Virus record (IMG/VR): IMGVR_UViG_3300022591_000041
Span: 1 to 31,979 of that record
Source: a virus
Reading direction: 5' to 3' (one strand)
Length of the DNA stretch: 31,979 nucleotides
The translations under genes were made by a program, and so were the position numbers. Of the stretch, positions 6,343 through 31,979 are shown piece by piece; the first letter of the stretch is position 1, and each line of letters starts with the position of its first letter. The notes under the pieces are model-generated. The model searched no databases, was not told the DNA's origin, and saw nothing but the letters and a program-made list of their open reading frames with translations.

Positions 6343-6360
6343 TCACCCATTCGTCGGTTC

Positions 6361-6394
6361 GACTGACTCCCACTCCCTTCCTTGGGAGTCAGTC
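6361..6394 (+). terminator. Perfect 12-bp hairpin after the capsid gene
   Basis: GACTGACTCCCA at 6361-6372 pairs perfectly with TGGGAGTCAGTC at 6383-6394 around a 10-base loop. No T-run follows, so it may act as a partial terminator or as a 3' end stabiliser that raises capsid mRNA relative to downstream genes. The role is inference; the stem is directly visible. Confidence 0.75.
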
Positions 6395-6418
6395 GGCCGG
6401 CACTTGGAAGGGAGTAGT

Positions 6419-6532: not shown

Positions 6533-6800
6533 GCTCGTAGGCCCAGATTCAGGATTGAAGCAAGTCGAGGTCGATGGCGTCAAGAAGGCTCGCGCCAAAG
6601 ATGGCACTTTCCATATTGAAGGCCACGCCGCGCGAACTTTAATGAAGACTGGCGATTGGGCAATTGTCGGGACTCGATTCAGCGCCGCCAACGGATTCAT
6701 CTGCAATGACTGCAACTTTAATTCAGTCTTCCGCGACAGATGCGGGCGTTGCGGTTGCACTAACCTTACTCCTGAATCCGAAGAAACGACTGCTGAATGA
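6525..6800 (+). CDS. Zinc-ribbon protein of the head region
   Basis: The protein has 91 residues when started at 6525, with AAGGA five bases upstream; an ATG at 6522 is too close to that site. Residues 60-76 hold C-x2-C-x9-C-x2-C (CNDC...CGRC), a zinc-ribbon pattern. The N-terminal half (MSRLVGPDSGLKQVEVDG) looks like a small beta-rich structural fold. Position just after capsid is shared by small unnamed proteins in many actinophages, so a minor head or accessory role is possible but unproven. Its stop overlaps the next start by 4 bases (ATGA). Confidence 0.75.
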   Translation: MSRLVGPDSGLKQVEVDGVKKARAKDGTFHIEGHAARTLMKTGDWAIVGTRFSAANGFICNDCNFNSVFRDRCGRCGCTNLTPESEETTAE

Positions 6801-7714: not shown

Positions 7715-8223
7715 TGTCCAGAGCCTCGATACGAAGCGCCGTTGCCTCTTATCTCTCAAGCGCAAACATAACGACGCTCAATAGCGTCAAACCATTCCCT
7801 GCAAAGTTCACGCCAGAGATGGACTTCTATGATGATGAAGACCCGGGCGTTATGACTGGCTCAATTATTTACATTTACATCGAGTCCCAGCGAGAGCGCC
7901 GACTTGAGATGGCATCTCATCAAGGCCGCAAAGAAGTCGAATACTCAGTCGTCCTTGACTGTTTCACTCGCTCACAAGAACCAAAGTCTGAGGATGCTGG
8001 CGCGTCTGCTGAGGCATTCCTTGACTCATTAGTTTCCTCTATTCGCTCAGACTTTCAGGCTGGCGCTCAAGGCGTCATCTTTCAATGGGGCGAAGGGACA
8101 ACCTCTGGCGGCCAAGATATCGATGTCGTGTCCTATTACCCTCGCATGATTCGCGGCCGCGCGGGAACAACGCAGGTGTATAGTCGAGTACGATTAACTG
8201 TCATCGAATTGATTACGGCATAG
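7714..8223 (+). CDS. Tail terminator-like neck/tail protein
   Basis: The 169-residue product starts at an ATG sharing one base with the previous stop (TAATG). It has the mixed alpha/beta layout of tail terminator proteins: an N-terminal helix (SIRSAVASYL), a beta hairpin with YIYIESQRERR, a central strand VEYSVVLDCFTRSQ, a helix (AEAFLDSLVSSIRSDF), and a final strand ending RVRLTVIELITA. Length and position between adaptor and tail tube match a protein that caps the tail tube at the neck. I do not see a diagnostic motif, so the name is inferred. Confidence 0.5.
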   Translation: MSRASIRSAVASYLSSANITTLNSVKPFPAKFTPEMDFYDDEDPGVMTGSIIYIYIESQRERRLEMASHQGRKEVEYSVVLDCFTRSQEPKSEDAGASAEAFLDSLVSSIRSDFQAGAQGVIFQWGEGTTSGGQDIDVVSYYPRMIRGRAGTTQVYSRVRLTVIELITA

Positions 8224-8230
8224 GAGCATC

Positions 8231-8464
8231 ATGGCAAAGTTCACATTCACCGGCGACGTTGAGATGGCATTCCCAACTCTTACCAATGCTGATGGCTCGA
8301 CTCTTGTCGCCAAGCCCGGCGATGTTGTCGAACTTGCAACTGACCCTCAGAGCGCGTTTCTCAGCCCAGTGGCATCATCTGCCAAGAGCGCCCCTAGCGC
8401 GGCTCCTGAGGCCCCTGAAGCGGCTCCTACAGCCTCTGATGTATCAACCCCAACGACCAACTAA
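8231..8464 (+). CDS. Small structural-region protein with Ala/Pro-rich tail, 77 aa
   Basis: AGGAG precedes the start. The first ~45 residues (MAKFTFTGDVEMAFPTLTNA, then VAKPGDVVEL) resemble small beta-barrel proteins often found near tail tube genes in actinophages. The remainder is an Ala/Pro/Ser-rich disordered tail ending in STPTTN. The last 15 coding bases plus stop are repeated at the end of the next gene (see repeats). Function unknown. Confidence 0.7.
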   Translation: MAKFTFTGDVEMAFPTLTNADGSTLVAKPGDVVELATDPQSAFLSPVASSAKSAPSAAPEAPEAAPTASDVSTPTTN

Positions 8465-8467
8465 GGA
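8450..8467 (+). repeat. 18-bp direct repeat, copy 1
   Basis: CCAACGACCAACTAAGGA covers the last codons, stop and following bases of the 77-aa gene. The identical sequence occurs at 8756-8773, so the two copies bracket the membrane-protein gene between them. Confidence 0.9.
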
Positions 8468-8473
8468 AGAATC

Positions 8474-8770
8474 ATGACAAGCAATATCGCCCGCAATATC
8501 ATCCGAACCGCAGTGCCTTCAATTGTTGGCGCAGTCGCGGCGCTCATTACCAAGATTGCCGTACACTTGACGCCGAGTGAGACTGCCATCATCTTCCCAA
8601 TTGCGACAACCGCTTACTACTCAGCGATTCGATTCCTCGAAGAGAGGTATCCTCAGTTCGGTTGGTTGCTCGGCTCATTCCCTGCCAATCACACAATCGT
8701 CATCAATAATGTTTCAGCCGCGAACACAGCGCCTGTTGCAGACGCTACAGTTCCACCAACGACCAACTAA
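8474..8770 (+). CDS. Small membrane protein (holin-like topology)
   Basis: The 98-residue product starts after AAGGAAGAATC. It has a hydrophobic helix at about residues 12-30 (AVPSIVGAVAALITKIAVHL) and a second at about 36-48 (AIIFPIATTAYYSAI), then a Pro/Ala/Thr-rich tail ending in PPTTN. Two membrane spans with short loops would suit a holin or a membrane-associated phage protein, but it sits in the tail module, away from the lysis genes. Actinophages do carry such proteins beside the tail tube gene. It lies between the two copies of an 18-bp direct repeat, so it may have been inserted or arisen by recombination. Confidence 0.7.
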   Translation: MTSNIARNIIRTAVPSIVGAVAALITKIAVHLTPSETAIIFPIATTAYYSAIRFLEERYPQFGWLLGSFPANHTIVINNVSAANTAPVADATVPPTTN

Positions 8771-8773
8771 GGA
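8756..8773 (+). repeat. 18-bp direct repeat, copy 2
   Basis: Identical to 8450-8467. It again covers the final codons and stop of a gene, here the membrane protein, immediately before the tail tube gene. Confidence 0.9.
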
Positions 8774-8779
8774 TTCCTA

Positions 8780-9802
8780 ATGGCCTTTCTATCCGTACAA
8801 AGTCAAATTGGTTTAGCCAAGGAGACAACTCGCAATACAGCAGTCAATCCGTCAGTATGGTTGCCTGTCCTCGCGCCTCAAGTAACGCCAATGCAGAAGT
8901 GGTTGCGCGATGAAGGAATGCGCGGCTCCCCCGTTTTGCTATACGACCAGATTGCCGGAACCCGTCACGATGAATATGACTTCAAGACGAATATCTTTAC
9001 AGACACCGTTGGTAATCTCTTCATGGGAATCTTTGGAACTGATACAGTGACTGGTTCTGCATCGACTGGATACACGCACGTTCTTTCATTGCTCAATAAC
9101 GCATCAATCGGCTCACAGCCCGCCTCTTACACAATTACCGACTTTGACGGCGCTAACGCCTTCCAGATTGCGGGCGCTCAGTTGATGGAATTAACTATGA
9201 CAACGATTGCTGATGGTTCGGCTGAGATTAGTGGCAAGTATGCCGGTCAGCCTTACACCGTTTTGACTTCTGGCGCATGGGGCGCATTGACTCCCGCATC
9301 CGCGAATCAAAATGCTTTCGTTGCGCCTTGGTCGGCCGCTGTCACTTTGAATGGCGTTGCCGCAACATATGTTGCTGAGACTGAAGTTAAGTTTGACCGT
9401 AAATCGACGCCAATTTGGACTCAAGGAACTCAAGGCCCAGAGCGCGTCTTTGCTGGCCCGCTTGAAGTATCTGGCCGAATCCTTTGCGTTCTTGAAACTG
9501 CCAACGACCCATTCTCAACGACAGTCGGAAGCCAAGCGCCGACTGCTCTATCTCGTTACCAAGGCGCGCTTAACCTGACTTTGACTGACGCTAATGACAA
9601 GGCGGGAACTTCGGCATCATCGCAAACCCTTTCCGTTCAATGCTCAAACGTCCAGTGGCATGATGTCAAGCGAACTCGCGGTAAGACATATGTCGAGGTT
9701 GAGGTTCAGTTCGAAGGACATTCCAATACATCAGATGCAGTGGGTGGCGGTTACTCGCCCGCTAAGGTAACATTGTTGAATAGCCAATCGGCTACTTACT
9801 AA
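8780..9802 (+). CDS. Major tail (tube) protein
   Basis: The 340-residue product has the features of siphophage tail tube proteins. The start MAFLSVQSQIGLAKETTRNT, then WLPVLAPQVTPM, is the usual opening that adapts to a given reference value. A middle region with EISGKYAGQPYT and a late VTLNGVAATYVAETEVKFDRK segment follow, and the C-terminal strand YVEVEVQFEGHSN is typical. It precedes the tail assembly chaperones and tape measure. AAGGATTCCTA provides the ribosome binding site. The gene shows less codon bias than the capsid gene although it should also be abundant. Confidence 0.85.
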   Translation: MAFLSVQSQIGLAKETTRNTAVNPSVWLPVLAPQVTPMQKWLRDEGMRGSPVLLYDQIAGTRHDEYDFKTNIFTDTVGNLFMGIFGTDTVTGSASTGYTHVLSLLNNASIGSQPASYTITDFDGANAFQIAGAQLMELTMTTIADGSAEISGKYAGQPYTVLTSGAWGALTPASANQNAFVAPWSAAVTLNGVAATYVAETEVKFDRKSTPIWTQGTQGPERVFAGPLEVSGRILCVLETANDPFSTTVGSQAPTALSRYQGALNLTLTDANDKAGTSASSQTLSVQCSNVQWHDVKRTRGKTYVEVEVQFEGHSNTSDAVGGGYSPAKVTLLNSQSATY

Positions 9803-9819
9803 TACCTGAAGGAAGGGCC

Positions 9820-10230
9820 ATGCAAACAATCGAATTACCAAACGGCCAAAGTGCCGTTCTCAAATCACGCGACATTATTACTGAGCGCATGGACAGAGAG
9901 ATTCAGAAGGCGCAGATGCGCGCCGCCGCATTGTCTTCGAAGTTGCAAGGCGCTGGATTCGACCCGTCTGATTCAACCTCGTGGTCGGCTCTAGGGACTT
10001 TGAATGATGACGAGTTCAATATTTTGAATGCTTACAATGAAGTATTAATTCTCACATTCCTTGCGTCATGGACTTTGAACAATGGCGTTTTGCCAGATGC
10101 CGAGGCTCTACGCGACTTGCCAAAGGCGACTTATGATGTTCTGTCTGATGCTTGCGTTCGTGCGTATGGCGGATTGCCTGACTTCTCGCCAGATGCGGTT
10201 ATCGACCCAAAAGCGCCTACCACCGTCTAA
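9820..10230 (+). CDS. Tail assembly chaperone, short form (gpG-like)
   Basis: This 136-residue protein starts after GAAGGAAGGGCC. It helps the tape measure protein and tail tube assemble in siphophages. Evidence is its place between tail tube and tape measure, an acidic helical composition, and a shift signal at its 3' end: the last codons read CCA AAA just before the stop, with a second open frame following. The short form is the ordinary product; the long form is made by frameshift (next entry). Confidence 0.8.
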   Translation: MQTIELPNGQSAVLKSRDIITERMDREIQKAQMRAAALSSKLQGAGFDPSDSTSWSALGTLNDDEFNILNAYNEVLILTFLASWTLNNGVLPDAEALRDLPKATYDVLSDACVRAYGGLPDFSPDAVIDPKAPTTV

Positions 10231-10412
10231 GTCTCTTACGCTCAGTCCTCAAAGAAGGCGGTGGTGAGATTGATAAAGAAACTGCCGCGCTGTATCGCGA
10301 ATGGCAATATCGTAAACTGTTTGGTGTAACGCATGAGGAATACCTCAACGAACCTGTTGATGTGATTGCATGGTTACTTGCTATTAACGGAGTCGCAAAT
10401 GCCAACGAATAA
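9820..10412 (+). CDS. Tail assembly chaperone, long form by -1 frameshift (gpGT-like)
   Basis: After the heptamer at 10206-10212 the -1 frame continues for 66 codons to the stop at 10410-10412, giving about 197 residues in total. The extension encodes ETAALYREWQYRKLFGVTH and then EPVDVIAWLLAINGV; a W-x-x-x-x-x-G-x-x...E-x-P-x-D-V-I pattern is the usual content of gpT-type extensions. It has no good start codon of its own, so it is reached by slippage. It overlaps the start of the next gene by 14 bases. Established for lambda and many other siphophages; here inferred from sequence. Confidence 0.85.
10206..10265 (+). promoter_or_regulatory. Programmed -1 ribosomal frameshift site
   Basis: The slippery heptamer C CCA AAA lies at 10206-10212 in the correct phase for X XXY YYZ slippage. 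Six bases later ACCACCG (10219-10225) can pair perfectly with CGGTGGT (10259-10265), giving a 7-bp stem around a 33-base loop, which could stall the ribosome. Spacing of 6 bases is what such signals need. The zero-frame stop lies inside the stem-loop. Confidence 0.85.
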
Positions 10413-10908
10413 TGTCAAAGTCGGATTCCATATGACGGGAGTCGATGAAGCCGTTACATCAATGCGCGCAAAGATGGCCGCCGCAAATCTTGCCGCCCGC
10501 AAAATCGTTGCAGATGGTGGTGAGATGATTGCGGAAGAGGCGCGCGCTCAATTCATTCCTCGCGTCAAAGGCGGTCGGCATAAAGTCACCGTCTATCACA
10601 AAGATGGGACAACCTCAGAGGCATGGGCGTATGGCGCGCCTGTTGATAGAGTCAATCATCGGCCGACTCAACGAACAGGGAATGTTCAACGCTCTATTCA
10701 AGTTTTTACAAGCCGAGGCCCGCGACAAGGCATGTGGATATCTGAAACTGGTCCGACTGCAAAGTATGGGCGTCGAGTCGAACTCGGAATGCATTATGGT
10801 GAAGGCGATGACACTTACCCTTACATGCAACCGGGATTCACTCGCGCAAAACCAAAGGTGCAGGCCCTCGCAACTAAAGAATGGCGACTAGCGTTAAGTT
10901 ATGGCTGA
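10399..10908 (+). CDS. HK97 gp10-like neck/tail protein
   Basis: The 169-residue product starts at the ATG at 10399, preceded by GGAG. It resembles the HK97 gp10-like family: a helical start AKMAAANLAARKIVADGG, then AEEARAQFIPRVKGG, a central RTGNVQRSIQV and a late AKYGRRVELGMHYGEGD, with TYPYMQPGFT near the end. These proteins usually sit in the connector region before the tail tube. Here the gene lies between the tail chaperone and the tape measure, an unusual place. It overlaps both neighbours. Confidence 0.8.
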   Translation: MPTNNVKVGFHMTGVDEAVTSMRAKMAAANLAARKIVADGGEMIAEEARAQFIPRVKGGRHKVTVYHKDGTTSEAWAYGAPVDRVNHRPTQRTGNVQRSIQVFTSRGPRQGMWISETGPTAKYGRRVELGMHYGEGDDTYPYMQPGFTRAKPKVQALATKEWRLALSYG

Positions 10909-12709
10909 ACTACTTCCACCAATCATTGCGACGCTCATGGCCGAAGGCGAACAGTTCTTTGGCTTATTCGAACGCGCCAACAAAACAATGGAAGGGACTG
11001 CGGCCAAGGCCGATACTCTCGGCGGCAAGTTTGCATCTTTAGGCTCAAAAGTATCGACCGTCGCTCTGACTGGATTCGCGGGCGCTCTGATTCTTGGGAC
11101 TAAGTATGCGCTTGAATACTCGGACCAACTTAAGGCTCTCCAAACGCAGGCGGGATGGACTAAAGAGCAAGTCGATAAGATGTCGCCTTCAATTCTTGAC
11201 CTATCAAACAAGATGGGCGTCGCGACAGACATCCTGATTCCCGCATTGGTATCAGCCTCGAAGGCTGGGTACACTCAAGCGCAGGCAATGAATCTTGTCG
11301 CTCAAGCGACGAACTTGGCGGCCACGACAACGACCAATGCAAAAATCTCAGCCAGCGACCTTGCAACGACAACCCAGACTCTTATCACTTTGCAGGCATT
11401 GCATATTAAAGGGACTCAAAATCTGACGACAACAAGCATTGCGCTATGGGCGGCGCAGGCTCATGGCACAATGACTATGACGGACTTTGCTGAAGCATTG
11501 AATGGCAAAGTCACCGCCGCAATGCAGGCGTTCGGCCTCGGACTTGATTCAGTTGGTTCAACGATTGCATTCTTTGCCGATGCTGGTCTCAAGGGCCAAA
11601 AGGCAGGCATGATGATTAGTCAGATGCTTGGCAAGATGGAGACTCCATCACAGACTGTTGATAAGCATTTACGCGCAATTGGATTAACTCAACAACGCGT
11701 CGCTGAAGATGTCAAAAAACCGGGCGGATTCTTATCGGTAATGCAAATGATTCACACGCGATTCATTGCGGCTGGTTACTCAGCAAAAGACTACTCAAAC
11801 TTCTTACTGCAACTGTTCGGTGGTGGTGCGCGAACGATGGCTGGTCCATTGCTCTTTGCAAACAACATGGACAAAGTTAATAAGATTATGGACCAGTCGA
11901 AGAATGCTGGTAAGAGTTATGGCGATGCGCTAGCCGCCTACCTGAATGAGCCTTCAACGAAGATGGCCAAACTCGGCGAACAGGTTAAGCATTTACTGCA
12001 AGGCATCGGGACATTTACTATTCCAATCGTTATGGATGCGACTAAGTTCCTTTCATCATTCATTGACAAACTTAAGACGAGTCCCGCATTGAAGATGGCT
12101 CTCGAAGAAAGTATTGCTGGTGTCATTGTTCTCGCGATGGCTATGAAGATTAAGAAAATATTCGGTTCAGTCAAGGACTTGTTCGGCAAAGGGACCGAAG
12201 GCGTCAAGAGCGCGCAGACGACAACCATTATTGAATTACTAAGAAGTATTGACATCAATACTGCAAAGACGGCAGGCTTAAGTCCCCTTGGCGGCGGACC
12301 AAAGACGCCGACCGTACCGCCCGGCAATGAGATACCGAAGCCGCCACCGACAGAAAATGGTGGCGGAGCAAGCGCGGCGGCAATAGCGGCAGTCGTCATT
12401 GCGGGACTTGCCTCTTTCGTCGTTCCCGCATCAATTTTGACTGCTGGTATGACGAGCCTTGATACAGCAAAAGGCCAAGCCGCATTGAAGAAGGCTTATG
12501 GTGCGCAAGGTGCGGCGCGGTTCAATGAAGCCCTTGGCGGCATTGCAAATGAGCATGGTTACGTCATTGACCAAAATGGCACTGTTGGCGGCGGCTCAGG
12601 CAGTCGCGTCGTATCCAATGAATTGATGCGCATTGAAGCCGCCATCCTGAAGGCCAATGCATTACATAAACCAGTCCCATCATTGAAAGTGATTCTCAGT
12701 GCCAGATGA
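10901..12709 (+). CDS. Tape measure protein
   Basis: At 602 residues this is the long helical protein that sets tail length and is injected with DNA. Evidence: long stretches of Ala/Lys/Leu helix with GALILGTKYALEYSDQLKAL near the start, repeated ALVSASKAGYTQAQAMNLV-type motifs of the phage tail tape measure family, an ALNGKVTAAMQAFGL segment, and hydrophobic spans at residues ~405-420 (AGVIVLAMAMKI) and ~495-520 (AAAIAAVVIAGLASFVVP). The position after the chaperones agrees. At about 1.5 angstrom per residue it predicts a short tail of roughly 90 nm. The gene starts inside the previous stop (ATGGCTGA). Confidence 0.88.
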   Translation: MAELLPPIIATLMAEGEQFFGLFERANKTMEGTAAKADTLGGKFASLGSKVSTVALTGFAGALILGTKYALEYSDQLKALQTQAGWTKEQVDKMSPSILDLSNKMGVATDILIPALVSASKAGYTQAQAMNLVAQATNLAATTTTNAKISASDLATTTQTLITLQALHIKGTQNLTTTSIALWAAQAHGTMTMTDFAEALNGKVTAAMQAFGLGLDSVGSTIAFFADAGLKGQKAGMMISQMLGKMETPSQTVDKHLRAIGLTQQRVAEDVKKPGGFLSVMQMIHTRFIAAGYSAKDYSNFLLQLFGGGARTMAGPLLFANNMDKVNKIMDQSKNAGKSYGDALAAYLNEPSTKMAKLGEQVKHLLQGIGTFTIPIVMDATKFLSSFIDKLKTSPALKMALEESIAGVIVLAMAMKIKKIFGSVKDLFGKGTEGVKSAQTTTIIELLRSIDINTAKTAGLSPLGGGPKTPTVPPGNEIPKPPPTENGGGASAAAIAAVVIAGLASFVVPASILTAGMTSLDTAKGQAALKKAYGAQGAARFNEALGGIANEHGYVIDQNGTVGGGSGSRVVSNELMRIEAAILKANALHKPVPSLKVILSAR

Positions 12710-12875
12710 CCAACAGCAAATCGAGATTGAACTTGAACTTGGTTTGATTGTAAATAAATTACTTGCCAACAAGGCATTCATGCGCGCTGTGACTGACGGC
12801 GTTCGCGCGCAATTGCTTAAAGATGCCAGAACGATGAAGACAATTTTTGGCAAATGGGGCGGGACGACTAAATGA
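12699..12875 (+). CDS. Small hypothetical tail-region protein, 58 aa (GTG start)
   Basis: The reading frame opens with GTG at 12699, overlaps the tape measure end by 11 bases and ends in ATGA overlap with the next gene. It encodes an acidic start (VPDDQQQIEIELELGLIVNK) and then a basic C-terminus (KDARTMKTIFGKWGG). There is no long leader, so translation is probably coupled. Function unknown; the tight overlaps on both sides are the main support. Confidence 0.6.
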   Translation: MPDDQQQIEIELELGLIVNKLLANKAFMRAVTDGVRAQLLKDARTMKTIFGKWGGTTK

Positions 12876-15106
12876 CGCAGATTGATTCGCTCCCCGTTCT
12901 TGCTGTCTCAATTGCATTCAATCCATCTAATCCGAATAGTCAGACTCAAACTTGGACTGATGTCACTTCATATGTTCAAGACTTCACGACTCGTTCAGGC
13001 CGCCAACACTTTCTCGACAGAATTGAATCATCTGGCCTTCAAATGACTCTTGATAATCGAACAGGGTTCTTTCTTAATGGAACGACTAACGGCACTGGTT
13101 ATGTCATCCGAACTAGGTTGCCAATCAAAATTACAGCGACTTGGTTGAGTGTTTCTTATCCTATCTATTTTGGATTAATTGAATCAGCCGAAGAGCGATT
13201 GATGGACTTTCTAAATCAAGAGATTGTTCTGACTTGCGCTGACTTGACCAAACAATTATCGCTCACAGATATGAATCTCCCATTGTTCTATCGGCAGTTC
13301 GTCAATAGCACAATCACGACTTCAACGACTTCGATAACAGTTAGTACCGGCTCAAAAACCTTCACCGTCCCGACACTGGCATCAGTCCCCGCGACTGGAA
13401 CAGCCGTCAGCATTATGGCTAAGGCGGTTCAAGGATTAGCGCCTATCATCGCGGTTGGGACCGTCTCTGCCGGAACGACTGCGACATCTCTTATCGTTAA
13501 TATTACGAACACATTTATTGCCGGCATCTCAGCCGGCCCATATACGTCTTGGGTCATCAGCATTGGTTCGGATATGGCTTACTACGGCCTCGATGCGGGT
13601 AATGTCAATGACGCTCTATTGGGCAACACTTTAACAATTAGCGGCAATGTCTTGACTAATGGTTCTGGCGCATTGCTTTATTCAAATCAAACTTGCATTG
13701 ACTTAAGTTATGGCGGCGTCCCGACTAATGTCGCATCTCTTCAATTGGCGCAGGGACTTGGCTACACAACAGTCATCGGCTCAATTGACTTCTGGATTCT
13801 TGGCCAGAATCTGAGCAATCAAAATATTCTCGCCTTCGTTGAAACAGGCGGCGGCAGTTATAACACTTTGGCTGTCTCGCCGTCAGGCGAATTAATTAAT
13901 ATCAACGGCACTTACTCGACAACGACAACCACTGGCATCAACATCATCGATGGCCAATGGCATCATGTCGGCATCTATTCAACAGGCACGAACATTTTTG
14001 TCTATTGTGACGGCATCTTTGTTCAGATACCAACTGTCGGCGGGCAGATTAGCGCGCAAGGTTTTGGATTATTTATTGGCAATAGTGTCTCAGCGGGGAC
14101 GTATCAACCGAAGCCTATTTATCCATTGTCGGGATTAGTTTCTCAATTGACAGTCGGTGCGCCTTATGTTCAGACAACTAGAAACAATATTTTGAATCGC
14201 TACAAGGCTGGCAATCTCTTAACGGAACAAATATCTTCAGGCGACCGTATTGCTGAGATTCTTATCTTGGCAGGGTTTGGAACAATTACTGCAGGCGCTT
14301 TATCGCCTACGAATTACACAGTGAATGATGCAACGTGGTCTACTGGCTTAGGGACTTGTTTCGTTCAAGGGTTTCAATCATCTGTTACTGGCTCAACCGC
14401 GCTAAGTCTCATTCAACAAGTTACTGATACTGATATTGGCGCATTCTTTCAAACGCCTGCTGGAGTGTTTGAGTTTGACACTCAAAGTTATCTTTACACC
14501 GCTACGCAAAATGCGCCCGCGACAGGGACGGCTGTTTGGACAGATGCAACCGCAACAGGAACATCGACTTACTATGATGCGATTAGTTCTCAAATCATTC
14601 GCGATGATGCAGATGTCTGGCCCGTTGTTCGAGTAACGCCGCAAAATGGCGTCGACCAAATTGCAACAACATCTTCATCAATCGCATCTTACGGATATGG
14701 AACTTTGACAAAAAGTGGCACGGTGCATGTAACTAATGATGCCGCATTGCAAACGGCGTATTATTTGGCAAGCATTTATCAGTCGCCCTTGCCGCGAGTT
14801 CAATCAGTCCAACTTCAATCTGAAACCAATAACGGATACTTAATGCCTGAGATGTTGAACCGATACGTCAATGACCAAATCCTCTTTATTCGCAATCAAA
14901 ATGGCGCATCAACAGCCGGCCAAATCAGCCTGCGAATGGGCGTTGAGAATATTCAACATGAGTTCAAGGCCGACCCGGGCTATTGGCATTCGACTTACAT
15001 GCTTGACCCATACCCTAAGTATTTTATAAATCAAGCCTCGCCGACTTACTACCTCTTGTTTGATGATGCCACATATGGCAAACTAGACACAATGATGCTT
15101 ATATAG
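12872..15106 (+). CDS. Minor tail protein with LamG/concanavalin-like domain
   Basis: The 744-residue protein follows the tape measure gene and probably forms part of the tail tip. The N-terminal part (residues ~1-130) is like distal-tail-type proteins (YVQDFTTRSGRQHFLDRI, then LQMTLDNRTGFF). Residues ~300-440 form a lectin-like jelly roll: SIDFWILGQNL, IDGQWHHVGIYSTGTNIFVY, then a YPLSGLVSQLTVG strand, which are hallmarks of LamG/ConA-like carbohydrate-binding domains. I infer binding to host cell surface glycans. The C-terminal ~250 residues include a NRYVNDQILFIRNQNG segment found in actinophage minor tail proteins. Low-complexity Thr/Ser stretches separate the domains. Confidence 0.75.
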   Translation: MTQIDSLPVLAVSIAFNPSNPNSQTQTWTDVTSYVQDFTTRSGRQHFLDRIESSGLQMTLDNRTGFFLNGTTNGTGYVIRTRLPIKITATWLSVSYPIYFGLIESAEERLMDFLNQEIVLTCADLTKQLSLTDMNLPLFYRQFVNSTITTSTTSITVSTGSKTFTVPTLASVPATGTAVSIMAKAVQGLAPIIAVGTVSAGTTATSLIVNITNTFIAGISAGPYTSWVISIGSDMAYYGLDAGNVNDALLGNTLTISGNVLTNGSGALLYSNQTCIDLSYGGVPTNVASLQLAQGLGYTTVIGSIDFWILGQNLSNQNILAFVETGGGSYNTLAVSPSGELININGTYSTTTTTGINIIDGQWHHVGIYSTGTNIFVYCDGIFVQIPTVGGQISAQGFGLFIGNSVSAGTYQPKPIYPLSGLVSQLTVGAPYVQTTRNNILNRYKAGNLLTEQISSGDRIAEILILAGFGTITAGALSPTNYTVNDATWSTGLGTCFVQGFQSSVTGSTALSLIQQVTDTDIGAFFQTPAGVFEFDTQSYLYTATQNAPATGTAVWTDATATGTSTYYDAISSQIIRDDADVWPVVRVTPQNGVDQIATTSSSIASYGYGTLTKSGTVHVTNDAALQTAYYLASIYQSPLPRVQSVQLQSETNNGYLMPEMLNRYVNDQILFIRNQNGASTAGQISLRMGVENIQHEFKADPGYWHSTYMLDPYPKYFINQASPTYYLLFDDATYGKLDTMMLI

Positions 15107-20876: not shown

Positions 20877-21998
20877 CTATGCTCGCCAGATGCTCGCATC
20901 CATCTCATGCGAGATAATTCGCTCGAATTGCTCGCGCGCTTCGCGCCTCTCTTCGTTGGCCGCCTGAGATGCATCAGGAGTCATCGTGATGTCGGCTTGA
21001 CTCGCGCTCGTCACTTGAGCATTGCGGATACGCCGCGTCGCTAATCGATTCGCCTCAGTGAATCGCATAATGCGCGATAGGGGCATCAACTCAACCTTCG
21101 CCGCATCCCAATCAACAACGGCCCCTCGCTTTGCAGGCGCAACAGTCGCATAAACGAATTGGTATTGCTCGCGGCTATATGTCCGGTTTGAATCAGGCCG
21201 AGTTTCATAAATCAGACTTATCAAGACGAACGCGCCATGACGGCCATCGATATAAACCTTGATTGGTAATTCGACTGATTCTTGCGCTCGCGATATCGGC
21301 AGTCGGTAGCCCGTCTTCACCCAGTTGAACCAAACCTTGCGGTATGGCTTACGGCCTCTCAACATCTGGTAGAACGGCGGCCGCTCGCGCGATGCGCATG
21401 ACGAATCATGCTCTTCAAAGTCATGGTCCATATCGCATTGACACTCAGGCGATTCTTCCGACAATCCTGAATAGATTGAGCGTTCGCCCATGAATAAATA
21501 AGTCGTGTCGTCATCTGCGAATCGCGATTGCTCTACGATGATTGCCGCCCATTTATTCAACTGAGACTTGCCCGTGTTGCGCGCAACCTTGCATTCAGAC
21601 TCGTTCATCCATCGGCATTCTGCACACCATGATTCGCTGTTCGCCATTGCTCGGCGCGCTGAGGCATAGTTTGCAAACTCTTTATAGAATGGGAAGAGTT
21701 CAAGCATCTGACTATCGGTGCTGAATGAATCGCGATGCGTTATGCATTCAAGCATCCATGACGCATTATCAATCCCAAACAACGTCCCAGCCTCTTTCAT
21801 CCATCCCTTGAAGAATTGATTGCGCTGAGGCGCTGGTTGCCAGAGCCTAATGATTGAGCCTGTTCGCGGATTCGTTCGAATGCCGACGACGTTGCCGCCA
21901 TGACTGCGGCGCGTCTTACAAATGCGACGATGCTCATAGACATTGGTAATCGCAAAGTCCTGCGCACAGAACTCGCATACTTTCCGTTCCTGCGGCAT
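20877..21998 (-). CDS. Hypothetical protein with N-terminal zinc finger
   Basis: This 373-residue protein is not one I recognise. Residues 8-27 hold C-x2-C-x11-H-x3-C (VCEFCAQDF...HRRIC), a zinc-finger pattern. Further Cys-rich segments follow: SWCAECRWMNESEC near residue 125 and ECQCDMDHDFEEHDSSC near residue 185. The C-terminal ~70 residues are charged and helical. It is the last gene of the amidoligase operon and shares one base with the previous stop (TAATG), so it is probably translationally coupled. A nucleic-acid or protein-binding role is possible. Confidence 0.75.
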   Translation of the reverse strand: MPQERKVCEFCAQDFAITNVYEHRRICKTRRSHGGNVVGIRTNPRTGSIIRLWQPAPQRNQFFKGWMKEAGTLFGIDNASWMLECITHRDSFSTDSQMLELFPFYKEFANYASARRAMANSESWCAECRWMNESECKVARNTGKSQLNKWAAIIVEQSRFADDDTTYLFMGERSIYSGLSEESPECQCDMDHDFEEHDSSCASRERPPFYQMLRGRKPYRKVWFNWVKTGYRLPISRAQESVELPIKVYIDGRHGAFVLISLIYETRPDSNRTYSREQYQFVYATVAPAKRGAVVDWDAAKVELMPLSRIMRFTEANRLATRRIRNAQVTSASQADITMTPDASQAANEERREAREQFERIISHEMDASIWRA

Positions 21999-22336
21999 TA
22001 GAGCATCTCCTGACTCGTTGCGCGCTCAATCAACCATTCAAAGAACTCGGGCGTGAGTTTCTTCTCGGCTGACTCAAGCGATGGGAATGGTGTCTCAAGA
22101 TTGTATGCGCCATTGAATGCGAATACATCTGCGCCATCAACATCAGTCGATAGCGTGAACCACTGAATGATGACATCATCGACAATATCAATGTTGTGAG
22201 TCGCATTGACTGTGATGGTGTAATCATCTGAATCGAATCGCTTGACGACCGTCATATGTTGCAGATTGTCAGAGTCATTCGGATACACCTCTTGAAACAC
22301 TTTCCAACCATCCCACTGCTTCATAAACTGCTTCAT
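21998..22336 (-). CDS. Hypothetical acidic protein, 112 aa
   Basis: The start is directed by GAAAGTAGGGAATC, 57 bases after the predicted cleavage point of the upstream hammerhead ribozyme. The protein is acidic and aromatic-rich (MKQFMKQWDGWKVFQEVYPN at the start, EFFEWLIERATS near the end) with a beta-rich centre (SDDYTITVNATHNIDIVDDV). I recognise no family. Confidence 0.72.
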   Translation of the reverse strand: MKQFMKQWDGWKVFQEVYPNDSDNLQHMTVVKRFDSDDYTITVNATHNIDIVDDVIIQWFTLSTDVDGADVFAFNGAYNLETPFPSLESAEKKLTPEFFEWLIERATSQEML

Positions 22337-22423: not shown

Positions 22424-22723
22424 TTAACTCTTGAACGACATCGCCTGCGCTGATGCCCATGCAACGACAACTGCATCCTCATCATTGACGTATGGGATTG
22501 ACTCAATCTCAAGGCGGCGAACGCGCATCGTGCTGACGAGATTGCTGAGCATGTTCTCTTGCATACGCAAGACTTTCTCAGCCAAATCGACAATCTGACT
22601 TTCACTGCTTCGTAATTGAGAGCAGAGCAAACCCTGCTCTTCGATACAGGCGCTGATACCGCGATACTCGCTTACGAGAGTTCGCAATTCATCGCGCCCC
22701 ACTTCATTGATTACTTCTGGCAT
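22424..22723 (-). CDS. Hypothetical coiled-coil protein, 99 aa
   Basis: The gene lies between the two hammerhead ribozymes. Its start at 22723 follows AATGAAAGTAGGGAAGT, 56 bases after the predicted cut in copy B. The product is mostly helical: EVGRDELRTLVSEYRGISAC, then SSESQIVDLAEKVLRMQENM, which fits a coiled coil. The C-terminus has a short strand region (ESIPYVNDEDAVVVAWASAQ). No family recognised. It belongs to the amidoligase operon. Confidence 0.7.
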   Translation of the reverse strand: MPEVINEVGRDELRTLVSEYRGISACIEEQGLLCSQLRSSESQIVDLAEKVLRMQENMLSNLVSTMRVRRLEIESIPYVNDEDAVVVAWASAQAMSFKS

Positions 22724-22741: not shown

Positions 22742-22800
22742 GGCCTATCTCATCAGTTGCAGGCGGCCATTCACTGCAAGACGCCTCACGGCGTTTCGAT
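22742..22800 (-). ncRNA. Type II hammerhead ribozyme (copy B)
   Basis: The minus strand reads AUC, GAAA, stem III ACGCC/GGCGU with a GUGA tetraloop, C17 (GUC cleavage site, at 22780), stem I UUGCAG/CUGCAA (6 perfect bp) around an 11-base loop, CUGAUGA (22750-22756), GAU. Stem I differs in sequence from copy A yet still pairs, and loop I holds GGCC that can pair with GGCC at 22742-22745. Predicted cut lies between 22780 and 22779. The 5' end of the ribozyme overlaps the last base of the glutamine amidotransferase stop codon. Stem II has 3 bp. Confidence 0.87.
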
Positions 22801-23642
22801 TATCCGCGCCAGCCTTGCCAATCACCCTCGCGCTCAGAATTGAGATACTCCGCCCAGATTGCATCATCATCATCAATATCGGCAAAGAGCGAAGGCGCGC
22901 TATATGAAGGCAACGCATAGCCCGCGCCGCTAGCCGCAAACTCGCTCCAATCATTGATTGCGCCTTGCTCGACTTTGAGATACGTCCCCTCTCCGACTTC
23001 AGCGCGCCACGTCAAGGCAAGATTCGACTTTGCCGCCGCGCGATTCAACATATTCATCTGAGAGCAGAACACGAACTGCCCAGTCTTTGATTGAGCAATT
23101 GCCAGAGGCGATGACTTGACTCGCGCTAAGCGCAACGTCTCAGGCGACTCCAAATCAATCCAAGCAAGCGCCGCGCCGCCAATCAAGCGAGGCAGAGCCT
23201 CACAGATTGAATCAGCATCAGAGCCAACCGACTCGATAAGAGCGAAGGCCGCCTCTGAATCAACCTGCCCGATGCGCTTGACGCCGACTTCATTGAAGAG
23301 CGCATCATCATTTGAGATATGCCCATTATGAACGCCGATGATACGAGGCCGAATGATGGGATGATTATTCGCATCAATCGAAGGAGAGCCTTGCGTTGCA
23401 TAGCGAGTATGCAAGATGCAGATGCGAACATCAGGCGACATCAGCGACTTCAACTCTTTCACGAATCCCCATGCTGAGCCTGCGCGCTTGTAATAATACA
23501 CCTCGCCATCTGACGGGTCGACCCACGATGCGCCAGTAGCATCCTTGCCGCGCGCGACAATCTCCAACAACAACTCTGATGCCAAGACTCGCGCATCAAT
23601 CTTTGCTCCGCCTGTTAAGCAGAATCCTGCGATACCACACAT
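22800..23642 (-). CDS. Class II glutamine amidotransferase
   Basis: The 280-residue enzyme releases ammonia from glutamine. It opens with MCGIAGF, so Cys2 becomes the N-terminal nucleophile after Met removal. Other landmarks are RGKDATG (31-37), HTRYATQG (78-85), NNHP (92-95), GVHNGHISN (103-111) and VDSEAAFALI. It lacks any synthetase domain, so ammonia is presumably passed to a partner, most likely the amidoligase encoded just upstream in the same operon. The start follows AAGGAAGGAATC. The last ~40 residues are acidic (DIDDDDAIWAEYLN). Pairing of these two families in phage and bacterial gene clusters has been described, so the link is a reasoned inference. Confidence 0.88.
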   Translation of the reverse strand: MCGIAGFCLTGGAKIDARVLASELLLEIVARGKDATGASWVDPSDGEVYYYKRAGSAWGFVKELKSLMSPDVRICILHTRYATQGSPSIDANNHPIIRPRIIGVHNGHISNDDALFNEVGVKRIGQVDSEAAFALIESVGSDADSICEALPRLIGGAALAWIDLESPETLRLARVKSSPLAIAQSKTGQFVFCSQMNMLNRAAAKSNLALTWRAEVGEGTYLKVEQGAINDWSEFAASGAGYALPSYSAPSLFADIDDDDAIWAEYLNSEREGDWQGWRG

Positions 23643-23671
23643 ATTGATTCCTTCCTTACTTTCTCGATGAC

Positions 23672-24772
23672 CTAGTTCAATTCCAAAACGCGCTCTGAGA
23701 AAAAGTCAACCAACTCAGATGGTGCGCCTGACAATTCGACAATCTTGGCAAGCGTATTCTCAACCTTGCGCTGACGGTAGCCAGCGGCTGAGCCATCGAA
23801 TGCGCCAGCGCGGCCTTCAATCGTGAATCCCTCTGAATTGCGCGCAATGGTAGGCACGAACTGCAACTTGTCTTCCTTTGCCAACTTCATGCAAGCCATG
23901 AGCAACAAGCCCCACTTCTGCATCTTCTCGCGGTTGAGCGTTCCTTGGTGCTGACGGAACTCAAGCGTCGTGTGGCGATTCATTGACTGCGTGTTGATGG
24001 TGCGGTAGCGCCAGTTGTCGTTATTAGGAACGACGCGACGCTCAAGCATCGGCATCTCTTCATCCAATTGGCGCTGAGTCCAACCCGACAAGAGCGAATT
24101 GATGCGACGGCTAGGCGAAGTCAGCGCGTCAAAGAATCCCTGATTGGCGACATAGAACTTAACCATGCGAACGAGCGCGGCGGCGGGCATGTCATCAGTG
24201 CCGAGATGAATGTGAGTGCCGCATGAGAGGCGAATCTGAGCGCCTGCATCCTTGAGCGCCTTCATCGCAATCTCAACTTCATCCCAACCCTCATCGCCAT
24301 ACAAGACTGGCGAGACTGCTTCCATGCCACATGATGCATCGCGAACGACCTTCCACCAAGTCGTGCGACGGTGCGTGTATCCTTCATCGCGAACTTGCAA
24401 GCCTGCATTCTCAAGCGCCGCCAACATCGCGTCGGCTGAAAGATTCTCAGTCTCAAGTTCGACGCCGAATGAGCGACGAGTCCAATCATCAAGCGTCGTC
24501 AGATTCTCAACGAACGCGCTAGACGATGCGCCAGTCGCGCCATTGCGGATTGATGCCATCGATGATGCGAACGCCCATATCGCTGAGTAATCGTTGGCGG
24601 CAACTCCGAGTGAGCGCGCGCGCGACAGAGCCGCACGAGCCGACTGGCCATGCGCCCAACCGCATACGCGCGCCGCTTGGTCGTAGGTGTAACCATTCTG
24701 AATCATCCACAAGCCGTGTGCCATGCGGCGCTCTGATTGATTACTGATTCGTGTTCCGTTCAGGTAAGGCAT
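23672..24772 (-). CDS. Amidoligase (glutamine synthetase-like COOH-NH2 ligase)
   Basis: Taken from ATG 24772 (after GAAAGTGGGAATCAA) the product has 366 residues; longer in-frame starts lie in the leader and -10 region. Residues ~10-60 look like a helix-turn-helix (GYTYDQAARVCGWAHGQSAR). The catalytic part follows: FGVELETE (Glu105/Glu107), GMEAVSPVL (Glu151), CGTHIHLG (His187/His189) and TTLEFRQHQGTL (Glu271/Arg273), which are the signature motifs of the putative amidoligase family. These enzymes are predicted to form amide or peptide bonds on unusual substrates using ATP. The promoter at 24841-24870 lies just upstream. An N-terminal HTH fused to an amidoligase is unusual. Confidence 0.87.
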   Translation of the reverse strand: MPYLNGTRISNQSERRMAHGLWMIQNGYTYDQAARVCGWAHGQSARAALSRARSLGVAANDYSAIWAFASSMASIRNGATGASSSAFVENLTTLDDWTRRSFGVELETENLSADAMLAALENAGLQVRDEGYTHRRTTWWKVVRDASCGMEAVSPVLYGDEGWDEVEIAMKALKDAGAQIRLSCGTHIHLGTDDMPAAALVRMVKFYVANQGFFDALTSPSRRINSLLSGWTQRQLDEEMPMLERRVVPNNDNWRYRTINTQSMNRHTTLEFRQHQGTLNREKMQKWGLLLMACMKLAKEDKLQFVPTIARNSEGFTIEGRAGAFDGSAAGYRQRKVENTLAKIVELSGAPSELVDFFSERVLELN

Positions 24773-24800
24773 TTGATTCCCACTTTCATTCATCGGCGCT

Positions 24801-24832
24801 AGCGACTTGCTCGCGCCTTGAGCGACTTGCTC
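24801..24832. repeat. Tandem 12-bp repeat in the amidoligase leader
   Basis: AGCGACTTGCTC occurs at 24801-24812 and 24821-24832, a spacing of 20 bases. Both copies lie between the -10 box and the start codon, so they are in the transcribed leader or overlap a repressor site. Role unknown. Confidence 0.75.
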
Positions 24833-24840
24833 ATGCATCA

Positions 24841-24870
24841 ATGATAGGCACGATTCGAGACAAATTGCAA
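24841..24870 (-). promoter_or_regulatory. Minus-strand promoter of the amidoligase operon
   Basis: On the minus strand TTGCAA (24870-24865) and TATCAT (24846-24841) are separated by 18 bases. A near-identical element lies at 27985-28014, including the upstream bases GTTTCAGATTGTTGCAA and the CGTGCCTA before the -10 box, which supports a real phage promoter. Confidence 0.7.
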
Positions 24871-24959
24871 CAATCTGAAACAGCGTGGGATTAGTGGGCT
24901 TTAGAACGCATTTTTGAGAGATTCAGCAGATAACTCAAAATGCGGCCGATTCAGCGCCA

Positions 24960-24987
24960 TTGATTGAATGGCTTGATGCAAGTAGTC
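24960..24987 (+). promoter_or_regulatory. Possible plus-strand promoter for a leaderless gene
   Basis: TTGATT (24960-24965) and TAGTCT (24982-24987) are 16 bases apart, and the ATG follows at 24995. No ribosome binding site is visible before the ATG, so a leaderless transcript is plausible. A small hairpin GCCATT/AATGGC overlaps the -35 region (24956-24972). Weak evidence. Confidence 0.35.
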
Positions 24988-24994
24988 TGTCTGC

Positions 24995-25522
24995 ATGATT
25001 GAAGTCGGCGACATTATCTTTGCGCACACCAATGGCATTATCGGCAAGGCGATTCGCTTTGCAGAGTGGTGGCATCATCCAACGCGCATGGGCAGTCAAT
25101 GGAATCATGTTGCAATAGTCACTCGCATTGACGACCACCGCATCTTCATAACTCAAGCGCAACCGCATGGCGTAACAAACGATATGGCGCTTGATGAACT
25201 AATTGATGTCAATGACAAGATGCTTGTGTATCGGCCGCCTGCGCATTTGAATCATGATGCGATGCTTGAGTTCGCATTTGGCGAAGTCGGCAGTCATTAT
25301 GGCTTCCTTTCAATCGCATCAGTTGCGACTGACATCATTACGCCGACTTGGGCGCCGGCTATTCGGACTCCTGATTCATGGATATGTTCGGCGTTGGCGG
25401 CTGAGTATCTGCGCGTTGGCGGCTGGGTCCATCGCTGGCCTGATATTTACGGCGTGATGCCCGCGCAACTTGAGTTGGCGCTACATGCTGACCTTGACTT
25501 TGAGATTGTGGCTCAGTTGTAA
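24995..25522 (+). CDS. YiiX/NlpC-P60-like papain-fold hydrolase
   Basis: The 175-residue protein is a lone plus-strand gene inside the minus block. It begins VGDIIFAHTNGIIGKAI, continues QWNHVAIVTRI with His38, and later has DSWICSALAAEYL with Cys131. His before Cys in the chain is the order of permuted papain-like enzymes (YaeF/YiiX type) and fits an amidase or peptidase acting on lipid or peptide amides. No signal peptide is seen. Its last 164 bases overlap the end of the antisense Ntn hydrolase gene. Role unknown: a second wall enzyme or a host-protein modifier are options. Confidence 0.78.
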   Translation: MIEVGDIIFAHTNGIIGKAIRFAEWWHHPTRMGSQWNHVAIVTRIDDHRIFITQAQPHGVTNDMALDELIDVNDKMLVYRPPAHLNHDAMLEFAFGEVGSHYGFLSIASVATDIITPTWAPAIRTPDSWICSALAAEYLRVGGWVHRWPDIYGVMPAQLELALHADLDFEIVAQL

Positions 25523-26030
25523 GTATCTTGAATGGCGGCATGACATCGCCTCGATGCATTGCGGCCGCCTCAAGTGCTGACTTCACGATGACCGAATCAT
25601 CTGGGCGATTCGATTGGCTGAGCATTGCATGACAAGCGCCAAGAGCAATGTTTGCGCCTGTCCCTGATGCGGCGTATGCGCCGATTCGCTTTAGTGTCGC
25701 ATATCGAAGGACTGCCCAATCTGAATTGACTTCATAAATTGAGCCGCCGACGCCAATAAGAATCTGCCACGACATCTCATCGCATTCTTCGCTCTTCATT
25801 GCGGCGCGCAAGGCATCGCGGAACTCAAAGGCGGATTCAGTTCGCTTAAGAGATTGGGCAATCAATCCGACGCGCCACGAGCCTGAGAATCCTGCAATCA
25901 TGTTGCGATTGATTCGCCAGACTTTTGTATCCGCCGCAATAAATCGAGTCGGCTCTTCCTCATCTTGCATGGCTGAATCGCCGCCCATGATGACGCGCCC
26001 TTTGCTCGCAATCGCGACGATGCAAGTCAT
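25359..26030 (-). CDS. Proteasome-like Ntn hydrolase
   Basis: The 223-residue protein starts at 26030, overlapping the previous stop by 4 bases (ATGA). After Met removal it begins with Thr: TCIVAIASKGRVIMGGDSAM. The proteasome catalytic set is visible: Thr1, Asp17 in GGDSA, and a lysine at 35 (proteasome Lys33). The fold pattern RFIAADTKVWRINRNMIAGF, then GSWRVGLIAQ, matches beta-subunit/HslV-like proteins. The C-terminal ~55 residues (QSQSQGQ, then a basic and Pro-rich stretch) are low complexity and lie antisense to the YiiX-like gene, so the core probably ends near residue 170. Substrate unknown. Confidence 0.78.
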   Translation of the reverse strand: MTCIVAIASKGRVIMGGDSAMQDEEEPTRFIAADTKVWRINRNMIAGFSGSWRVGLIAQSLKRTESAFEFRDALRAAMKSEECDEMSWQILIGVGGSIYEVNSDWAVLRYATLKRIGAYAASGTGANIALGACHAMLSQSNRPDDSVIVKSALEAAAMHRGDVMPPFKILTTEPQSQSQGQHVAPTQVARASRRKYQASDGPSRQRADTQPPTPNISMNQESE

Positions 26031-26212
26031 CTGATGCGCACCACGACTTCGCAAGGGTCGCCGCCGCGCGCCCACTCCGCTTCCATCTCTTTAGTCGGGA
26101 ATCCGATGTCGTGCTGATAACACCATGACGGTGTGCAGAATCCGAGGCGAATGCCTCGCTCAAGCCACTCGCGTTGCTCTAGCCTGTCGATTGGTAATTT
26201 GCTGTCGCTCAT
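26027..26212 (-). CDS. Small conserved-type actinophage protein, 61 aa
   Basis: The start follows GAAAGGAAGAATG. The product contains REWLERGIRLGFCTPSWC, YQHDIGFPTKEMEAEW and GGDPCEVVVRI, a layout that recurs in small actinophage proteins: two Cys, a His-Asp pair, an acidic Trp-containing segment and a Gly-Asp-Pro-Cys end. It may bind metal. Function unknown. It is just downstream of the hairpin at 26235-26268 and overlaps the Ntn hydrolase start, so these two probably form a unit. Confidence 0.75.
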   Translation of the reverse strand: MSDSKLPIDRLEQREWLERGIRLGFCTPSWCYQHDIGFPTKEMEAEWARGGDPCEVVVRIR

Positions 26213-30630: not shown

Positions 30631-31122
30631 TTACCGCATCTTGTCTGTGTTGTTCTTGGCCTTTAATGCCTCGCGAATCTGCGACACGCGCGCTGGTATA
30701 TCAATCTGTTCAGTTAAATCAATCGCATGGTTCTTTATAAAAGGATTATCTAATGGTTTAGGGTAACTTGCTAACTCTCTAGAGCGTTCGCTATTTACGC
30801 TCAACGCAGTCGCAACTTGCGCTCTCTTAACTTGACCTCTCGCAGTGATATCTCTAGCCTCAGTCTCAACAGCGAACTTATAAATGGCGGGTTTGCGGTT
30901 AGTCGCGTCATACATCTTGACTAAGACACCCATCGCCTCAAGCCTTCGCATTGAACGAGAGACTGTCAGTTTGCTCAGTCCAGTCATGCGCGCGACGGTC
31001 GATTGAGCGGGCCTCGCTTGAGTCCCATCATCATGAGCAAAGTCTGCCAACGCTAATGCAACCAACTTCTCAGTCGCGGGCAAATCTAACTTCCATACGA
31101 GTTTGCTAATCCAGATGCTCAC
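30631..31122 (-). CDS. Winged-helix/HTH protein, probable replication or regulatory role
   Basis: The start is GTG at 31122 (after AGAGGCG), overlapping the previous stop. The first ~80 residues (KLDLPATEKLVALALADFAH, then STVARMTGLSKLTVSRSMRR and LEAMGVL) form a winged helix of the HTH_36/replisome-organiser type. The C-terminal part is charged and probably disordered, ending in a helix rich in Lys/Arg. In phages such proteins load the host replication machinery or act as regulators; the position beside nucleases favours replication. Not certain. Confidence 0.7.
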   Translation of the reverse strand: MSIWISKLVWKLDLPATEKLVALALADFAHDDGTQARPAQSTVARMTGLSKLTVSRSMRRLEAMGVLVKMYDATNRKPAIYKFAVETEARDITARGQVKRAQVATALSVNSERSRELASYPKPLDNPFIKNHAIDLTEQIDIPARVSQIREALKAKNNTDKMR

Positions 31123-31823
31123 TTAGTTCGCCTCTTGATTAACTCATCGCGCTCTCCCTGCAATGCAGAGAAAGTTGCGACGCCTTGCTTGCGTTTGAGA
31201 TGCGGAATGTTATTGACAACGATGCCAACTTTATTGTTCGACATTGTTGCGGCCAATAAATCATCTTCCTCTTGGTCGGTGTAGCCCGCATCAATCAATG
31301 ATTCGATAGTCGGGAAGACATCAGCATGACGGTCATGATTCTTATCAACCAACTTGTCTTGCTTGCCACCCATTGAATAGATAATGACGAAGTTGTTCGG
31401 CAGGCTCTTCGACTTAACCATGCCAACCTCTTTGGTGTAAGCGTAAAAAAATACATCCGGCGTCGCCTCTGCGATTCGTATCCAAGCATCAAGGTAAGGC
31501 TCAATGAAGAAGTCGCCTGAATCATGAATGCGAACTTTCTTGCCGTCGCGATATCGCTTTGCCTTCAACTCTTCAATCATCGAGGCTTCCCAGCCATTAA
31601 TATCATCGAGAATCATCTTCAACTTCGCGACATGCGCCGCCTTCACATTGCTGAATCGATAAGTCCCGACTCGCGCATAACAAAGGTTCGCGCATATGCC
31701 GGCATTAGGACAAGTCAAGATATTGCCATGCCCTTCGACGCGCGCATTCAATGCAGGCAACGACCAAGTAAAGATGCCCGACTTCGCGAGTTCGCGGTTG
31801 CCATTAGTCAGCAGATACTTCAC
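31119..31823 (-). CDS. GP88-like protein
   Basis: The 234-residue product is like the GP88 family named after mycobacteriophage L5 gene product 88: TCPNAGICANLCYARVGTYR, RIHDSGDFFIEPYLDAW and DVFFYAYTKEVGMVKS. The conserved Cys cluster C-x5-C-x3-C-Y-A and the R-I-H-D-S-G-D-F motif are the family marks. Its biochemical role is unknown. The GTG at 31823 overlaps the upstream stop (GTGA) behind AGGTGG; a TTG at 31838 would add five residues. It is widespread in actinophages, which supports the host inference. Confidence 0.78.
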   Translation of the reverse strand: MKYLLTNGNRELAKSGIFTWSLPALNARVEGHGNILTCPNAGICANLCYARVGTYRFSNVKAAHVAKLKMILDDINGWEASMIEELKAKRYRDGKKVRIHDSGDFFIEPYLDAWIRIAEATPDVFFYAYTKEVGMVKSKSLPNNFVIIYSMGGKQDKLVDKNHDRHADVFPTIESLIDAGYTDQEEDDLLAATMSNNKVGIVVNNIPHLKRKQGVATFSALQGERDELIKRRTK

Positions 31824-31979
31824 TTGCCACCTAGCCAATTGATATCTCTCAATGGCTCAACGATGTCTAGATAGTCCAGCACCTTGATTACGTCGCAGGG
31901 CCACTCCACGTAATACTCGCCACAACCGCACCTATCGCAGTGTGGCGATTCTTCCCCTGTCTTATTCCACCATTCGTTG
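31820..31979 (-). CDS. Hypothetical Cys-rich protein (start outside window)
   Basis: The frame is open from the window edge to the TGA at 31820-31822; 52 residues are visible. The segment SPHCDRCGCGEYYVEWPC suggests a zinc ribbon, followed by an acidic helix (VIKVLDYLDIVEPLRDI). It overlaps the GP88-like start by four bases. No family recognised. Confidence 0.6.
   Translation of the reverse strand, partial: NEWWNKTGEESPHCDRCGCGEYYVEWPCDVIKVLDYLDIVEPLRDINWLGGK

Follow-up and report, generated by a model that had tools for sequence, protein, structure and literature searches.

Phage genes for an amidoligase and a glutamine amidotransferase are already in print, in papers from 2012 on of which parts were available to us, and the idea of such a pair is not new. 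According to the accessible text of PMC10580990, the two families occur together in over 30 viral genomes, and the OM43 phages MEP401 and MEP402 are described there with both (PF12224 and PF13522). Both enzymes are also listed for UFV-P2 in the portion of PMC3890496 at hand and named for phage tf in that of PMC3517423. LUZ24, UFV-P2, tf and phage U17 carry what the excerpts available call a 'peptidoglycan modification module', in which an amidoligase gene is followed by an amidotransferase gene in the early region, together with genes for a COOH-NH2 ligase, an ATP-grasp protein and a cyclotransferase. Phage amidoligases have been called wall-modifying for over a decade; no substrate is given in the literature searched, as far as its text was accessible. 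Iyer 2009 is cited for phage amidoligase modules or the wall hypothesis in the available parts of PMC10580990 and PMC11318856, and the wall hypothesis in PMC11945000, judged likewise from part of its text, rests on another reference.

Two cellular systems resemble such a pair. In Staphylococcus aureus, as described in the extracts consulted, MurT and GatD carry out a two-protein amidation of a carboxylate in peptidoglycan, although the ligase belongs to an unrelated family and GatD to the class I amidotransferases. In ergothioneine synthesis, the ligase EgtA works with EgtC, a stand-alone enzyme of the class II amidotransferase fold, but EgtC removes a glutamyl group (PMC10805701, seen in part).

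The window analysed here is the whole of IMGVR_UViG_3300022591_000041, a linear viral record of 31,979 bases that is possibly a fragment. In its left part the genes run rightwards and include portal, tail-tube and tape-measure genes; in its right part, which encodes a GP88 protein and a RecE-like exonuclease, most genes run leftwards. The amidoligase gene (23672-24772, minus strand, ATG start, 366 aa) is followed by the amidotransferase gene (22800-23642, minus strand, ATG start, 280 aa), whose ATG is preceded by a purine-rich stretch resembling a ribosome-binding site. The longest open frame of the amidoligase begins with a TTG at 24841 and encodes 389 aa. Downstream of the pair, on the same strand, lie open frames of 99 aa (22424-22723; no Pfam or PHROG match), 112 aa (21998-22336; no PHROG match, and in Pfam one match below threshold, E=0.081) and 373 aa (20877-21998; no Pfam or PHROG match). 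The spacings along the run, from the amidoligase onwards, are 29, 76 and 87 nt, followed by a 1-nt overlap. An earlier note on this DNA had described the two enzyme genes as adjacent on one transcript with the three others. All five open frames are present, and the adjacency of the pair (29 nt, same strand) was borne out. For the single transcript the spacing fits, but promoter-like matches in the window (6, against 4.7 in shuffled sequences) and terminator-like matches (5, against 4.8) stayed at the shuffle level; what suggests co-transcription is thus the gene spacing. The run probably begins in the gap at about 24772-24995, because the upstream C92 papain-like gene (24995-25522) lies on the opposite strand.

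As a member of the known pair type, the locus is new and rather divergent. Named phages with both genes include the Arthrobacter phages Salgado, Ottawa and Kovu, LUZ24 (gp18-gp19) and Aeromonas phage LAh_9. The Salgado, Kovu and Ottawa pairs are like that of the window in order, strand and adjacency, with identities of 31-33% for the amidoligase and 36-38% for the amidotransferase, and two Salgado-type rows among our viral contigs (L030 and L061) have N-termini of the window's kind. They differ in that an annotated gamma-glutamyl cyclotransferase gene lies directly upstream of the pair in Salgado and Kovu and that Ottawa has a frame matching a cyclotransferase profile. The LUZ24-like module shares the gene order with the window but is larger, and its amidotransferases are longer than 280 aa (486 aa in UFV-P2, from the part of PMC3890496 available, and 510 aa in LUZ24, calculated from the gene coordinates); the LUZ24 amidoligase is 19% identical to that of the window in our alignment. 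Using small home-made profiles, we found no cyclotransferase, ATP-grasp or COOH-NH2 ligase gene in the window, the record being linear and perhaps incomplete. MEP401 and MEP402 belong to another phage lineage with another host, and are likened to the window by family content.

The assignment of the 280 aa protein to the class II (Ntn) glutamine amidotransferases, with its catalytic motif kept, was upheld by profile, conserved positions and predicted fold. It matched Pfam GATase_6 (PF13522) with E=1.6e-15 and 57.7 bits, the cut-off being 27, and the PHROG glutamine amidotransferase family phrog_14519 (4.3e-48). In an alignment of 38 phage sequences (37 of the 38 picked loci plus the window, L074 being left out), Cys2, Arg80, Thr83, Asn106-Gly107 and Asp128 were invariant, and the residues aligned with those of GlmS in a profile search of the PDB. 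We take the cysteine after the methionine to be the N-terminal residue of the enzyme, and the Arg, Asn-Gly and Asp to be glutamine-binding. The predicted model (pLDDT 88.6; residues 245-280 mostly disordered by prediction) superposed on Escherichia coli GlmS (2j6h_A) with a VIA Z of 28.7 and 2.1 Å over 218 residues, followed by PurF (Z 28.3), asparagine synthetase B (22.9) and EgtC (22.7); glutamate synthase was also in the fold list, below GlmS and PurF. When the PDB was searched with a profile built from four sequences, all matches at E up to 1e-5 were GlmS chains, and in NCBIfam GlmS (1e-17) and PurF ranked first, with EgtC (4.3e-5) and asparagine synthetase lower. By profile and by predicted fold, ammonia donors are closer to the protein than is EgtC, a gamma-glutamyl hydrolase. 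It was not taken for any of these enzymes itself: the scores for GlmS, PurF and asparagine synthetase were 63.9, 28.4 and 18.5 bits against cut-offs of 418.05, 350 and 267.1, with no second domain, and that for EgtC was 23 bits against the equivalog cut-off of 218.65 for TIGR03442. The protein stands alone, and since it has no synthase domain it would need a partner. Stand-alone amidotransferases 36-39% identical to the phage enzyme were also seen in five cellular loci (L215-L219, from Thermoleophilia and another actinomycete MAG). No amidoligase was found anywhere in the DNA examined for these loci, which counts against the two-subunit reading given below, and the neighbours of two of the five (L216 and L217) revealed no consistent partner. 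Gene 99 of Arthrobacter phage Laroye is called a GTPase domain protein in the accessible text of PMC5513430 and a glutamine amidotransferase in the deposited records.

The 366 aa protein likewise proved to be an Amidoligase_2 enzyme with its motifs intact, and no profile search moved it to another family. It matched PF12224 with E=1.9e-25 and 90.6 bits, the cut-off being 22, and the PHROG amidoligase enzyme family (3.1e-33). Across 61 sequences E105-x-E107, E151, H187-x-H189, N260 and E271-x-R273 were invariant; the E-x-E, E, H and E-x-R residues are presumably metal and phosphate ligands, as in glutamine synthetase. The model (pLDDT 83.5) has, from about residue 98 to residue 366, a fold like that of glutamine synthetase and GCS2. 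It resembled 1tt4_A most closely (VIA Z 14.1, 3.8 Å, 230 residues), then YbdK (1r8g_A, Z 13.8), glutamine synthetases (about 13) and Dop (12.5); Foldseek agreed at E of about 1e-5, with TM-scores of only about 0.3-0.4. The positions E105/E107, E151, H187/H189 and E271/R273 coincide with or adjoin predicted strands (101-109, 149-153, 185-191 and 269-272), a placement read from the strands and not from superposed side chains. A profile of the amidoligase gave no match among PDB sequences up to E=1, and a scan of viral contigs with the single sequence gave no relative. With an alignment of seven amidoligases as the query, 234 relatives were obtained, of which the best 80 were kept. The window enzyme sits on a long branch of the 61-row tree (1.7 changes per column), another point against the two-subunit reading.

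The relatives of each enzyme were fetched separately from the viral contigs, some contigs falling in both sets. The amidotransferase search gave 204 relatives. Among the best 80 of these, 74 loci had an amidoligase as the adjoining upstream gene, in the same orientation and no more than 615 nt away; the other six had only 54-535 nt of sequence upstream. After removal of near-copies from these best 80, 25 of 27 loci were paired and two had no room. Within the best 80 of 204, the amidotransferase thus strictly depends on an amidoligase wherever there is room. The dependence is one-way. Among the best 80 of the 234 amidoligases, 37 had an amidotransferase directly downstream; in one locus (L057) the amidotransferase gene was divergent, four loci lacked room, and 38 were unpaired despite having it. 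In the amidoligase tree, 26 of the 27 paired rows, the window included, lay on one side of a branch with support 100/98, and on the other side were 34 unpaired rows and L041, whose amidotransferase match is weak (5e-10). This split means that one amidoligase clade keeps the amidotransferase and the other does without it. The earlier note had named absence of the pair from related phages as grounds for refutation; the pair recurs there, and the pairing is real and old. This dependence, the split in the tree and the helix-turn-helix-like (HTH-like) module described below come from the present analysis; less expected were the strictness of the one-way dependence, that module, and a small third gene that recurs in other loci. 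Dependence on a single amidoligase clade makes this a small two-protein system open to purification and assay.

Two further samples bear on how widely the pair occurs. In 47 RecE-anchored loci there were 10 amidoligases and eight amidotransferases, all eight directly after an amidoligase; this control is biased, two of its three seeds coming from amidoligase loci, and supplies no background rate. In six partial records of relatives, selected through their portal or RecE, no amidotransferase was found; this, too, weighs against the two-subunit reading, and the pair is therefore not established as a core feature of this phage group. On the same six records the amidoligase profile gave three matches of 12.8-14 bits, covering at most 44 model positions near its start, which we read as chance or HTH matches.

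We propose, with a probability of roughly 55%, that the pair is a two-subunit, glutamine-dependent amide synthase. The amidotransferase, its Met1 removed, would hydrolyse glutamine by means of its N-terminal cysteine and release ammonia; the amidoligase, with its glutamine synthetase/GCS2 fold, would use ATP to turn a carboxylate into an acyl phosphate and would couple this to the ammonia, so that the acceptor carboxylate would become a carboxamide. The idea in the earlier note of a ligase served by an ammonia donor is in this respect supported. This reading is favoured because the amidotransferase has no synthase domain, was not found without a ligase in viral loci with room, and has ammonia donors as its nearest solved relatives. 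Both folds, the conserved catalytic positions, the fixed gene order and the dependence of the amidotransferase were shown by computation; we infer that the two proteins form a complex, that ammonia passes from one to the other, and which way the reaction runs. The acceptor most often quoted is a carboxylate of the peptidoglycan stem peptide, with superinfection exclusion or the tuning of lysis as the outcome; this is a published guess, and we regard it as a possible but tentative candidate.

The main rival, which we consider unlikely, is that the amidoligase glutamylates an amine and that the resulting gamma-glutamyl amide is afterwards cleaved by the class II enzyme, as with EgtA and EgtC. 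GCS2-type ligases, which the amidoligase model resembles, take an amino acid and not ammonia as the amine, and this counts against an amide synthase. In a survey of the neighbours in 38 pair loci, the window and 37 others, all divergent from one another, with families named from one member each, cyclotransferase-like genes lay near the pair in 12 loci; a cyclotransferase beside many pairs, and directly before those of Salgado and Kovu, would fit the same glutamyl chemistry. EgtC shares its fold with the amidotransferase, and it removes the glutamyl group that EgtA has added, according to the part of PMC10805701 available. However, GlmS and PurF are nearer to the phage amidotransferase than EgtC by both profile and fold, and the small home-made profiles found no cyclotransferase-like frame in the window.

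A different function might be read from the amidoligase N-terminus, where about 45 helical residues, which the earlier note does not mention, resemble a helix-turn-helix (approximately residues 11-58, 24599-24742 on the minus strand; helices 12-25, 30-37 and 42-54 of the model). The first profile of this module was circular for its own training rows, and the figures given here come from a held-out profile. The 61 rows were divided into 13 for training, all from one subclade, 31 that were tested and 17 that were left out because their N-termini were shorter than 20 residues. Of the 13 paired rows outside the training set, the profile matched 12, all with E no higher than 4.7e-4; it matched no unpaired amidoligase (18 rows) at E up to 0.01, a threshold that three of 620 shuffled sequences also passed. 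In the unpaired amidoligases the N-terminus is often of another kind or missing. The window was the weakest match (E=4.7e-4, 11.9 bits), and its match to HTH_23 (E=0.044) was below the cut-off. Several related N-termini matched Pfam HTH families weakly (best 2.4e-5), none reaching the cut-off. An HTH-like module thus appears common to the paired amidoligases and absent from the unpaired ones, the version in the window being weak. We found no description of a phage amidoligase fused to a helix-turn-helix in the parts of the literature searched, and one may already be in print.

This module offers a concrete alternative to the wall hypothesis. It could bring the amidoligase to nucleic acid, where the pair would amidate DNA, a DNA-bound protein or phage regulators, or the protein could repress its own operon. 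The contrast between paired and unpaired rows and the weak HTH matches of the relatives agree with this; against it stand the lack of any HTH match at the Pfam cut-off, the 11.9 bits of the window and the shuffled sequences that passed. The scans of window proteins identified none as a base-modifying partner, and an HTH can also serve protein contacts. We judge such a role improbable. That the two enzymes are unlinked accessory genes of separate pathways which merely share a transcript is least probable, for although 45 of the 75 loci L092-L166 have at least 150 nt between the two open frames, room for small open frames, and the second amidoligase clade does without this partner enzyme, every amidotransferase-anchored locus with room (best 80 of 204) has an amidoligase, across a deep tree. 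In many of the loci L098-L165 the two genes are about 200-600 nt apart, with recurring small open frames between them, one of which resembles a single-pass membrane peptide.

In the 38 divergent loci, a small gene directly after the amidotransferase was found in eight by BLAST clustering and in 12 by profile. Its product is conserved and mostly about 85-125 aa long (examples are L028:5005-5364(+), L013:9327-9668(+) and L003:11820-12080(+)); of three members scanned, two had no Pfam or PHROG name and one matched an unnamed PHROG only. A bolder version of the nucleic-acid proposal joins these observations: the paired amidoligases would form a distinct, HTH-carrying, glutamine-dependent clade acting on nucleic acid or a nucleic-acid-bound protein and not on the wall, in many phages with the conserved small third protein encoded directly downstream, and the window, lacking the third gene, would represent a reduced form. 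We hold this to be improbable as well. The window's own downstream genes were compared with the small third gene of other loci and showed no resemblance.

The suggestion that all five genes of the run form one pathway was not supported, the three downstream genes being without relatives in the 165 other loci, a scan that excluded the window and its copy L001, and in the 47 RecE-anchored loci. The 99 and 112 aa genes matched two loci each and the 373 aa gene one, solely the window and its copy. A search of 50,697 phage records with the 373 aa protein gave no match; by eye, this protein begins with a Cys/His-containing stretch resembling a small zinc finger. The C92 papain-like gene (24995-25522, plus strand) was rejected as a member of the module, with no relative in the same 165 and 47 loci. 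It overlaps an HslV/proteasome-like gene on the opposite strand (25359-26075, minus) by 164 nt, and HslV-like genes were seen near RecE in six of the 47 RecE-anchored loci. Defence evasion, which the earlier note raised as a possible purpose of the operon, is a conjecture, and none of nine proteins of the region matched the defence models of PADLOC 2.0.0 at E up to 0.1.

Other families near the pair in the 38 divergent loci were ParB-like (11 loci), WhiB-like (11) and GP88 (six), and the WhiB neighbours point to actinobacterial hosts for many of the phages that carry the pair. The GP88 protein of the window (31119-31838, minus strand; PF17338, 5.5e-49) matched 143 records, 123 of them from mycobacteriophages, with a Streptomyces phage as the best, and the best match of the portal protein was from an Arthrobacter phage; these matches make an actinobacterial host plausible for the window phage. 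The same GP88 protein is 75% identical over 227 residues to a protein of L038/L150, whose contig also has the pair. One further contig, L250 (IMGVR_UViG_3300023311_000032), is 99.8% identical to positions 22-13225 of the window, so it represents the same phage or a sister phage assembled twice.
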